Source: Nitrososphaerota archaeon (lineage in GTDB: Archaea > Thermoproteota > Nitrososphaeria > Nitrososphaerales > UBA57). From it: a stretch of DNA of 64,000 nt. The stretch covers positions 212,218-276,217 of the forward strand of contig JACPSZ010000007.1 of NCBI GenBank assembly GCA_024860875.1, read 5' to 3'. Within the stretch, counting starts at the first letter, position 1, and each line of letters opens with the position of its first letter. Below are positions 21,440-63,604 of this stretch, piece by piece. The notes below the pieces were generated by a model, which saw nothing but the letters and a program-made list of their open reading frames with translations, did not search any database and was not told the origin of the DNA. The position numbers and the translations under genes are program-made.

Positions 21440-21714
21440 TAAAAGGTTTATCCGAGCATCTAGTAAGGGACTCGTACTAACATACTCTAGTACTCTACTA
21501 CTCAGAACGGTGCTGATAACTCTCCGGATTATCCCATTATTCGCTTTTTATACCCCCTCTAGGGTCTGGATAACGATAGGGGCCCCTACAGACATGATTG
21601 ATACTTGGTGGGTCTTTCGGTTTATCAGAAGTCGACTTTCGGATCTCCCGAAGAGTTATCAGAACCCATAAGCAGAATGTATTTAAGAAAAGACCTGTTT
21701 CATAGCTGTTGATA
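21440..21714. repeat. Spacer with 11-bp inverted repeat
   Basis: No gene is seen. CTGATAACTCT (21513-21523) is perfectly repeated in inverse at 21652-21662, enclosing a 12-bp palindrome TAGGGGCCCCTA near 21578-21589 and a TTCGG/CCGAA hairpin near 21639-21653. A strong TATAAAAAG is present on the minus strand near 21542-21550 and could start a transcript with a roughly 90-nt leader for the zinc-ribbon gene. Confidence 0.4.
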
Positions 21715-36085: not shown

Positions 36086-36211
36086 TTAAATTGATTCGGG
36101 TGGATCCGTAGGGCTAGAATTAGCTCCCTTTCTCGCTATTACTATCCCAGCAACCAATGTAGCCACCATAGCAATCACCACAGCAGGATAGGTAGATTTG
36201 TAATTCATCAT
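36086..36211 (-). CDS. Small single-helix membrane protein
   Basis: 41 residues: YKSTYPAVVIAMVATLVAGI forms one membrane helix, followed by RKGANSSPTDPPESI. Starts ATG 36211 or 36208. No family known. Its start codons lie inside the 21-bp block shared with the tiny peptide gene at 51.95 kb, and it is divergent from the tiny gene at 36244. Confidence 0.45.
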   Translation of the reverse strand: MMNYKSTYPAVVIAMVATLVAGIVIARKGANSSPTDPPESI

Positions 36212-36221
36212 GCTAATAAAC
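36201..36221 (+). promoter_or_regulatory. 21-bp promoter block shared by two tiny genes (copy 1)
   Basis: Matches 19 of 21 bases with the block at 51990-52010 (minus strand). Both contain ATTCATCA and end in GCTAATAAAC, a TATA-like element centred about 27 bp before the ATG. Confidence 0.6.
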
Positions 36222-36243
36222 AAAGAAAATAGGTACTCACTGA

Positions 36244-36285
36244 ATGACTAAGAAGAAACATGCGAAGAAGCCCGGAAAGAAGTAA
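36244..36285 (+). CDS. Tiny lysine-rich peptide (13 residues)
   Basis: MTKKKHAKKPGKK, stop, then a T-rich run (ATTTTTCTTCCTCT) that could terminate the transcript. The pattern M-x-K-K-x-H-x-K-K also occurs in the 12-residue ORF at 51930-51968, which has the same promoter block 21-22 bp before its ATG. The shared promoter, peptide pattern and following terminator signals are the evidence that this is a gene. A -1 shift near its end would join it to the GIY-YIG frame. Confidence 0.5.
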   Translation: MTKKKHAKKPGKK

Positions 36286-36287
36286 AT

Positions 36288-36569
36288 TTTTCTTCCTCTG
36301 CGCAACAGGTAGTAGCGCGCGAGGGTGATAACTTCGGTATTTACGAGCTCGGGAACGATGGCGACATACTATACATTGGTGAAGGACAAGTCTATAGTCG
36401 CCTACTGTCCCATTTTTCCACAGGTTCAGATCCGGTTGTTGGTGCTTCCTACTACAGGGTTGAGTATACCGGAAGTAGGGTGAGGGCCGTGCAAAGACAA
36501 AACGCGGAATTGGCCGCCTATGAAAGGACGCATGAGCGCCTTCCGAAGTTTAACCAGCGCATTCGCTAG
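36288..36569 (+). pseudogene. GIY-YIG nuclease-like fragment without start codon
   Basis: The frame reads GDNFGIYELGNDGDILYIGE (GIY ... YIG), RLLSHFSTG, YYRVEYTGSRVRAVQRQNAE and ends at TAG 36569. It is the GIY-YIG fold as in small endonuclease or phage proteins. No ATG, GTG or TTG precedes it in frame; the frame opens after a TAA at 36249. A GCGCGC motif (36314) lies just before the recognisable domain. Confidence 0.6.
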
Positions 36570-37385: not shown

Positions 37386-37815
37386 CACCGGGCTTCGATG
37401 GAATTATGATGGTTTTGATAACCAGATCCTCGCCCTCCAGTTTACGCATCGCGCGCTCTCTATGCGGAGAGTCTCCTACTCAGATATTATACACCCAAGG
37501 GAAACAAAGTGAAGGGTAGATCCGGAAGACATATCTTCATAGTAAATAGTAGGAATCTTCAAGATTTCTTGAAGAAACCGAAGTTTGATCTATTGGGGTT
37601 CAGGCGTGATTATGAGCGACTGTAACGCGCGCTGGTTGCAATTGAGTAATAGTCTACAGACAAAATCTTTGGGTTCACATATACGGATGAATACCTAGTC
37701 TGCCAACACTACGACTCGAGGCTACGATGCCAGATTATCGATCGCACAAAATCCCCGACCGGCATGGGGCACTAAACGAAACTCTTTTGTTTATGGGAAG
37801 AGCTACTCTACATCC
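37386..37815. other. Spacer with small ORF, two GCGCGC motifs and one arm of the inverted repeat
   Basis: CGCAT and ATGCG flank a CGCGCGCT core at 37446-37466. A 38-codon frame at 37509-37625 (HIFIVNSRNLQDFLKK, GFRRDYERL) looks like a gene fragment; its TAA runs into CGCGCGCT. From 37697 the 118-bp repeat begins, carrying the last 26 codons of the gene at 42901-43122, without its front part. Confidence 0.5.
37697..37814 (+). repeat. 118-bp perfect inverted repeat, left arm
   Basis: Identical in inverse to 42862-42979; the arms enclose about 5.0 kb. It holds the 3' end of a small gene (stop TAA at 37773-37775) and the sequence up to 2 bp before the ferredoxin ATG, including its likely promoter. 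Confidence 0.95.
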
Positions 37816-42861: not shown

Positions 42862-42979
42862 GATGTAGAGTAGCTCTTCCCATAAACAAAAGAGTTTCGT
42901 TTAGTGCCCCATGCCGGTCGGGGATTTTGTGCGATCGATAATCTGGCATCGTAGCCTCGAGTCGTAGTGTTGGCAGACT
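42862..42979 (-). repeat. 118-bp perfect inverted repeat, right arm
   Basis: Inverse copy of 37697-37814. Here it is part of an intact small gene (42901-43122) and its downstream sequence. A CGCGCGCTCG motif lies 5 bp outside the arm (42848-42857). Confidence 0.95.
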
Positions 42980-43551: not shown

Positions 43552-44143
43552 TGTTCTCACCCAGAAGCAGCTACCAGGTGCGACCACAGAGAAGCAACAA
43601 CATTCACATGCTGGCTCTCCTTCTGAACAAATTATTCGCTTTGAGTACATCTATTTCGCAGAGGCCTTCCTTTAATGTCAGAGGAGAAAAAGGAACCCCA
43701 AGACACAAAAATAGAACCTGAGTATTCGTCAGTATATATGAGCCCAAAGATTTTGTCTGTAGACTATTACTCAATTGCAACCAAGGCAAGGTTTGTTAGG
43801 ACGAATAGTGGAATACCGAGTACTCCGAGTTGGTGTTATCACAATTTCGGAACCAGCGCTGACAATGAGTAATATTCCAAACCAAAAAGGACGAAACTCC
43901 GGGGAAGAAGAAAGGAACCTGTAGTGCAATAATGAAAAAAGGACAAACAATGGTGCATGGTAAATTTTCCCTTCAAACAGGTTAAGCACAGATTCTTGGA
44001 CTCTGGGGCAGTGGGATGCGACAACCTCCCCGTCCATTCTTATTATGCTCAGGCCGAGCAGTGTCTTTTCGTCTACAAGCTTTTGCAGGTTCAGCCTAAC
44101 TTCCAATTTATCCACGTTTAATAGGCTAACTTGACCAATAAAG
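43552..44143. other. Spacer with shuffled coding pieces
   Basis: A plus frame from 43675 (65 codons, EEKKEPQDTKIEPEYSS) and a minus-strand stretch near 43960-44130 (LVDEKTLLGLSIIRMDGEVV, CPRVQESVLNLFEGKI) both look coding but neither forms a full gene. The minus piece resembles a roadblock-type strand-turn-strand. I read them as debris. Confidence 0.35.
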
Positions 44144-51809: not shown

Positions 51810-51887
51810 ATGGCCGTTCGTCGGTAAATCAAAGTTCGATATCCTCTTTTACCTAGTGATGTTATAGAAGCGTCAGTGCTAGAGGAG

Positions 51888-51907
51888 GCAGGAATCCCCA
51901 ATCCTGC
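51888..51907 (-). terminator. Hairpin after the tiny peptide gene
   Basis: GCAGGA and TCCTGC enclose an 8-nt loop, starting 23 bp past the stop codon of the minus-strand tiny gene. Confidence 0.45.
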
Positions 51908-51929
51908 TTCACTCTAGTTGGAAGCTTGG

Positions 51930-51968
51930 TTACTTCCTCGATTTCTTTCCGTGACTTTTCTTAGCCAT
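51930..51968 (-). CDS. Tiny lysine-rich peptide (12 residues)
   Basis: MAKKSHGKKSRK. Second copy of the tiny-gene pattern at 36244: same M-x-K-K-x-H-x-K-K start, same 21-bp promoter block, and a hairpin after the stop. Independent occurrence of all three features argues for a real transcript. Function unknown. Confidence 0.5.
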   Translation of the reverse strand: MAKKSHGKKSRK

Positions 51969-51989: not shown

Positions 51990-52010
51990 GTTTATTAGCT
52001 TGATGAATTT
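51990..52010 (-). promoter_or_regulatory. 21-bp promoter block shared by two tiny genes (copy 2)
   Basis: On the minus strand it differs from 36201-36221 at 2 of 21 positions; its TAATAAAC is centred about 27 bp before the ATG. Confidence 0.6.
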
Positions 52011-60944: not shown

Positions 60945-61364
60945 ATGATGACTTCCACTTTCCAATCTGATGACCCGCGACTAATATTCCGTTTGCCCCA
61001 AGAGCTAGCCGGGCTTCAAAACGCTTCTGATAAGGGGCTAAATGAAGTACTATTTTCCGATTTACTACGCAAGTCGGTTATTGATGCAACAAAGGACGTC
61101 TTAGGCGAGGCACTTGCTCGCCGTGTGCTAAATTATCTAAGGATGGATAACACGGAAAACATTCTGGAGGTGAGCACGTTCTTACATTCCATGTGTGGAG
61201 ACACAGGAGCATCAATTGTAGAGAGGGCGATAGTCAAGGATCTGTTCGAAAGGGCCGATATTGAATATATAGAAGATTACGGAATGGACTTCGAATTGGG
61301 GATCAACATTGTTCGTCAGAGGCTCACAGAAGTTTGCATTCAGACAAGCATTTACAGCGAATAA
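60945..61364 (+). CDS. KaiC-island small helical protein (paralog C)
   Basis: 139 residues. The last 90 match the family: SVIDATKDVLGEALARRVLN, a middle linker, STFLHSMCGDTGASIVERAI and VKDLFERADIEYIEDYGMDF. The N-terminal 45 residues are an extra polar extension. In operon with the exported protein gene. Confidence 0.6.
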   Translation: MMTSTFQSDDPRLIFRLPQELAGLQNASDKGLNEVLFSDLLRKSVIDATKDVLGEALARRVLNYLRMDNTENILEVSTFLHSMCGDTGASIVERAIVKDLFERADIEYIEDYGMDFELGINIVRQRLTEVCIQTSIYSE

Positions 61365-63265: not shown

Positions 63266-63604
63266 ATGGTGCAATTTGCCCAAAGTGCGAATAAAGAATT
63301 CGCCAATATACTGAGCGATTCGATCCAAGAAGGGTTGAAGAATGCTATTGGTGAAAGTGGCATGCAAGCAGTCTTCTTTCATCTCGGCTTGTCTGAGCAT
63401 ATTGGGGATCCAGAAGCATTTCATCATGCTATGTATCCGTTGTTCAGAGACGGAACCACAGTACTCGAAAAGATAATTGTAAAGGAACTCTTTCGAAAGC
63501 TCAATGTGTCGGATTATTTTCTAGGGGACTTTGGTTTCCAGAAGTATGTCAGCTTCGCGAGGGAAAATTTCAAAATTAGAATGAATGGGGGAGAGCAGTT
63601 GTGA
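63266..63604 (+). CDS. KaiC-island small helical protein (paralog H)
   Basis: 112 residues: NKEFANILSDSIQEGLKNAI, GMQAVFFHLGL, FHHAMYPLFRDGTTVLEKII and VKELFRKLNVSDYFLG. Overlaps the next gene by 4 bp; a short operon with a winged-helix protein and a KaiC-like ATPase. Confidence 0.65.
   Translation: MVQFAQSANKEFANILSDSIQEGLKNAIGESGMQAVFFHLGLSEHIGDPEAFHHAMYPLFRDGTTVLEKIIVKELFRKLNVSDYFLGDFGFQKYVSFARENFKIRMNGGEQL

Follow-up and report, generated by a model that had tools for sequence, protein, structure and literature searches.

A putative family of lysine-rich microprotein genes behind a shared promoter block in one archaeal lineage

The stretch of DNA analysed here (the window, 64,000 nucleotides) belongs to contig C15 of an archaeal genome of 1.67 Mb and 92% completeness, in which EF-1-alpha, proteasome and shikimate genes were recognized by reading. 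The window carries two very short lysine-rich open reading frames, copies A and B, each downstream of a promoter block (Table 1). The sequence-only reading had placed them, with 13 and 12 codons, on opposite strands at a distance of 15.7 kb, and both were located accordingly. Beyond the window, the contig carries two further copies. Copy C (MAKKKPAKKPKKK, then stop) is downstream of a third exact occurrence of the block (C15:160733-160751, minus strand), and copy D (C15:162881-162922, minus strand; MAKKKAPKKPAKK, then stop), found by a DNA search, lies 2.2 kb from copy C behind a weaker version of the block (ACCCATCATTTTAATAAAC). The source genome holds at least four members of the mini-gene family. 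Across the family, the peptides have 6 to 9 basic residues per 12-13 and zero acidic residues, with KK alternating with A, P, G or S, and two subtypes can be distinguished: type I (MAKKKxxKKPxKK; copies A, C and D, as well as G001-I and G003-I from two related genomes) and type II (MAK[KR]SxxKKxRK; copy B, G001-II and G003-II).

Table 1. Positions in the window of the mini-ORFs of copies A and B, their promoter blocks and adjacent features
Feature	Position	Strand	Remarks
Divergent small membrane-type ORF	36086-36211	-	MMNYKSTYPAVVIAMVATLVAGIVIARK...; start codon within the promoter block of copy A
Promoter block of copy A	36203-36221	+	ATTCATCATGCTAATAAAC; TATA-like CTAATAAA at 36213-36220
Copy A mini-ORF, type I	36244-36285	+	MTKKKHAKKPGKK, then stop
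DUF7508 (PF24348) reading frame	36285-36569	+	No in-frame ATG, GTG or TTG; start missing at the point where copy A ends
Hairpin 3' of copy B, possible terminator	51879-51917	-	z -2.9 against shuffles
Copy B mini-ORF, type II	51930-51968	-	MAKKSHGKKSRK, then stop
Promoter block of copy B	51990-52008	-	ATTCATCAAGCTAATAAAC; TATA-like CTAATAAA at 51991-51998

The blocks of A and B had been reported to match at 19 of 21 positions and to lie 21-22 bp before the start codon. Both statements are correct: a 19-bp core (ATTCATCANGCTAATAAAC) is identical in the two blocks, and the distance to the ATG is 22 bp at copy A and 21 bp at copy B. The resemblance had also been judged hard to explain by chance, and the counts agree, with two exact matches in the 64 kb against 0.02 expected and none of 100 shuffled sequences having two. 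Pattern searches of the whole source genome with up to two mismatches returned three block matches (A, B and C), each 21-22 bp before a lysine-rich mini-ORF. Up to three mismatches gave four, the addition being a 3-mismatch match on contig C6 that has no lysine-rich mini-ORF after it.

When the block was searched for in 101 genomes, 17 matches with up to two mismatches were detected. Five of these precede a lysine-rich ORF 21-22 bp further on, namely A, B and C (zero mismatches) and G001-I and G003-II (up to two). The remaining 12 comprise nine without an ATG at 15-31 bp, two ahead of short non-lysine ORFs and one ahead of a basic 11-codon ORF. This last ORF (in G015, L014) was set aside as chance-like, its surroundings being AT-rich and the lysine pattern absent. 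The sequence-only reading would have been contradicted by a block found widely with no lysine-rich ORF behind it. This is not so, as five of the seven matches in the genomes of the archaeal family precede one and the remaining two both come from a single genome in another genus; beyond the family, no block match in the 101-genome search clearly precedes a lysine-rich ORF.

A TATA-like box (CTAATAAA, or TTATATA in G003-I) lies about 24-31 bp upstream of the ATG in the family copies and ends 20-23 bp before it in all aligned copies, with a spacer of differing sequence. This distance fits the expectation for a leaderless archaeal transcript. A similar TATA-like box stands at about -30 in several ordinary genes of the window, but TTCAT was found in the matching upstream interval of none of the 29 gene starts examined. 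Possibly, ATTCATCA is an upstream element or regulator site that is specific to the mini-genes. Known leaderless archaeal mRNAs whose promoters are of the BRE/TATA kind (e.g. PMC4983044, PMC5316973) likewise have a TATA-like box at the appropriate distance before the ATG; they differ in that the start site is a predicted one here and that the extra ATTCATCA element is specific to this family. Given the dedicated promoter that they share, the copies are probably co-expressed.

Relatives were searched for with a strict ORF pattern (MAKKxxxKK...K followed by a stop codon) in 400 genomes of the order and 398 of the phylum. Real matches in the order came from three genomes only, all of family f1: copies B, C and D of the source genome, MAKKKAAKKPGKK and MAKKSRGKKTRK in G001, and MAKKKASKKPAKK in G003. 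Two further matches in the order were rejected because they have an in-frame TGA inside. In the phylum set the source genome alone matched, and the exact pattern was missing from the other genomes of both sets, about 390 in the order and 397 in the phylum. A looser search added G003-II (MAKRSHSKKPRKQYSKRY, 18 codons), which lies 21 bp behind ATTCATTATGCTAATAAGC, and MAKKKTTKKAKKTTRKKK and MAKKKTTKKKAKKTTRKKK in G004 and G006 (MAKKKTTKK...KKK, 18-19 codons). As the G003-II ORF sits behind a block that had come up independently in the promoter search, the promoter predicts the peptide and the peptide the promoter. Orthologues of the MAKKKxxKKPxKK and MAK[KR]SxxKK subtypes occur in one genome of the same genus and in one of another genus of the family, and a third genus has the 18-19-codon relatives. 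The strict form is absent from genera g2 and g4, so the gene is dispensable or has diverged within the family. Genus g2 instead encodes a long H1-tail-like lysine/alanine/proline repeat protein (L170 in G008, 99 aa; also L178 in G005). A viral origin was considered and rejected: lysine-pattern matches in viral contigs are mainly the ends of longer proteins or contain in-frame stops, and the eight block matches there fall in unrelated sequence, seven of them within a single conserved stretch.

At most mini-gene loci the flanking genes are different and hence give no functional clue. Copies A, C and G001-I have 120-160 bp in common, covering the divergent hydrophobic frame, and differ in their wider neighbourhoods. 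A 395-bp stretch common to D and G003-I includes two frames, a convergent hydrophobic one and a small zinc-finger-like one. These shared stretches would be accounted for if the lysine-rich peptide and a small membrane peptide were encoded together as a two-gene unit, for example a toxin-antitoxin-like or membrane-surface module. However, the divergent membrane-type ORF of copy A, which has a counterpart at copy C and whose coding status is uncertain, is broken at its start in G001-I, and its A and C versions differ predominantly by non-synonymous changes. D and G003 have an unrelated hydrophobic frame that lacks an ATG, and B and G001-II showed no counterpart. Given the broken frame in G001-I and the replacements between A and C, we regard a two-gene module as unlikely.

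The homology between A and C ends at the stop codon of the lysine-rich ORF, exactly where the startless DUF7508 frame begins. Two intact DUF7508 relatives have about six extra N-terminal codons, start with MPLAIKWS and have no lysine tail. From this coincidence of ends and the longer, tail-free relatives, it seems that duplication placed the mini-gene unit on the start of a DUF7508 gene. The DUF7508 frame is outside the mini-gene family and marks where a mini-gene unit joined. The apparent landing of copy A on another gene could also be expected if promoter and ORF formed a small cassette that duplicates or moves and persists through its own spread, not through function. In line with this, a single contig holds all four copies, with A and C 89% identical over 123 bp, A and D 80% identical, and the flanks unrelated, and gene synteny around the copies is absent between the source genome and G001. 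Against such a cassette, an unsystematic look at the copies revealed neither a transposase nor terminal repeats, and types I and II remain distinct in two genera with codon-level constraint. We rate a cassette no higher than the two-gene module.

Other repeated sequences were observed in the window. A perfect 118-bp inverted repeat (37697-37814 and 42862-42979, 5 kb apart) encloses ferredoxin-like, UPF0182 and rhomboid-like genes and is flanked by a second inverted pair of 62 bp and 94% identity (37633-37694 and 43722-43783); it could reflect an inversion or a promoter duplication. A 156-bp stretch at 21513-21666 has a 92% identical copy elsewhere on the contig (L007 7259-7409), and its copy in the window contains an internal inverted repeat, possibly indicating a small mobile element. 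The ORFs at 60945-61364 and 63266-63604 look like paralogues by eye, the first without a Pfam match.

Between species, the codons of the ORF and the TATA-to-ATG spacing are kept, and the spacer and the DNA 3' of the ORF generally are not. The exception is D and G003-I, in which downstream sequence is shared. DNA similarity between B and G001-II is confined to the 39-bp ORF and stops at its ends. Six codons differ between D and G003-I, five of them synonymously and one not. Pooled over D/G003-I, B/G001-II and C/G001-I, 11 changes are synonymous and five are not, where 70-81% non-synonymous changes would be expected (P 2e-5 to 1.6e-3, the range reflecting the assumed transition bias and the test treating changes as independent). 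Because of the assumed independence and the very short sequences, the codon test is good support, short of proof, and the conservation evidence rests on 12-13 codons and eight ORFs. With conserved codons and spacing, an unconserved spacer and 3' DNA, and mostly synonymous changes, the mini-genes have the look of leaderless microprotein genes.

The mini-genes had been proposed to be leaderless mini-mRNAs or a dual RNA/peptide gene. Their anatomy (shared promoter, TATA spacing and conserved peptide) supports the first of these. The second, in which the units would be small regulatory RNAs or dual RNA/peptide genes and the lysine-rich frame incidental or secondary, draws on the shortness of the units, their common promoter, the hairpin after B, which forms better than in shuffled sequences, and some structure after C (z -2.2). 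It is opposed by the lack of conservation between species in the DNA 3' of the ORFs and in the spacer between promoter and ATG, by the end of the B/G001-II similarity at the stop codon, and by the prevalence of synonymous changes. In addition, the RNA of copy A does not fold better than shuffles, and Rfam matched no family at the mini-genes, its sole match being one tRNA elsewhere. We consider an RNA gene slightly less probable still than a cassette or a two-gene module. The earlier suggestion of a terminator-like signal after each ORF is weak: the hairpin after B is real, but no T-run follows it, and the T-run after A lies inside the DUF7508 reading frame. Neither the T-run of A nor the hairpin of B is kept among the other copies.

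It is very improbable that copy A is the detached N-terminal tail of the DUF7508 (GIY-YIG-like) protein, separated from it by a frameshift. The startless frame does begin at the end of the lysine-rich ORF, one frame off, but the MPLAIKWS... starts of the intact relatives and the end of the A/C homology speak against it, and no DUF7508 lies beside B, C, D or the copies in G001 and G003. Least probable of all is a lysine attenuation leader, in which ribosomes stalling on the lysine codons would control a downstream lysine-supply gene: lysine codons are dense in the short ORF, but the copies have no common or lysine-related co-directional gene downstream, C ending against an opposite-strand gene and B against a GYD gene.

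On the sequence evidence, the family is real and conserved in this one archaeal lineage, and its members are probably microprotein genes. Somewhat more confidently than an even chance would allow, we propose that its members are free-standing, leaderless genes for lysine-rich microproteins of 12-13 residues (up to 19 in relatives) that act as nucleic-acid-binding polycations. Transcription would start at or next to the ATG from the dedicated TATA-type promoter and give a leaderless mRNA, and this short mRNA would be translated into the basic peptide. The product would be an unstructured polycation that binds DNA or RNA and resembles a histone-H1-like or ribosomal-protein tail detached from its protein. 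Candidate roles are nucleoid compaction, binding to the ribosome or rRNA, and charge neutralisation; judging by composition, nucleic-acid or ribosome binding is the likeliest.

With their AKKPAKK/KKPGKK motifs, lack of acidic residues and low complexity, the peptides resemble what we take to be their nearest analogues, the H1 C-terminal domain and bacterial HctB/AlgP-type tails. Unlike those tails, they are free-standing at 12-19 residues, without a globular part or a repeat array. The tiny ribosomal proteins eL41, bTHX and bS22 are likewise very short, very basic and encoded by genes of their own. Compared with eL41, the family peptides are about half the length and restricted to one archaeal family, and type I is dominated by lysine and not arginine. 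The 25-residue eL41 profile (PF05162) had no match in the genome; control genomes were equally matchless, and the peptides are too short for a profile scan. The small ORFs of the GMSC catalogue (9-99 aa; PMC11364881) fall in the same size range and are likewise of uncharacterised function, whereas the mini-genes are backed by a shared promoter and orthology. A search of a limited literature collection found no paper on such lysine-rich peptides.

Similar genes were detected in distant groups. Five Rokubacteria genomes (L066, L067, L073, L075 and L080) have the same 13-codon layout in free-standing, high-GC form, with MAKKK[A/G]xKKKKKK-type ORFs of 11-13 codons behind strong Shine-Dalgarno sites (GGAGGTGA-type). 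In three of the five, a second lysine ORF of 11-13 codons lies about 90 bp away, forming tandem pairs. Comparable free-standing 13-codon lysine ORFs were found in the DPANN groups Micrarchaeota (L068, L076, L083), Diapherotrites, Nanoarchaeota and Pacearchaeota (L069, L072 and L088 being the remaining loci). Some other lysine-pattern matches were set aside as the ends of longer proteins or because of stops inside. As sequence and signals differ between the groups, convergence is likelier than homology. Free-standing lysine microproteins of 11-19 residues may, we suggest tentatively and at clearly less than even confidence, be a recurrent, convergent and overlooked gene class in archaea and bacteria, acting as gene-encoded, polyamine-like polycations on nucleic acids or ribosomes.

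The mini-genes are far below the size usually called by annotation pipelines. If translated, they would rank with the shortest known protein genes that stand alone and are conserved, and they would have their own promoter. The combined test of promoter and codon conservation could reveal more genes of this kind in uncultured archaea. The occurrence of free-standing lysine peptides in unrelated phyla prompts the question of whether gene-encoded short polycations may serve in place of polyamines or histone tails.
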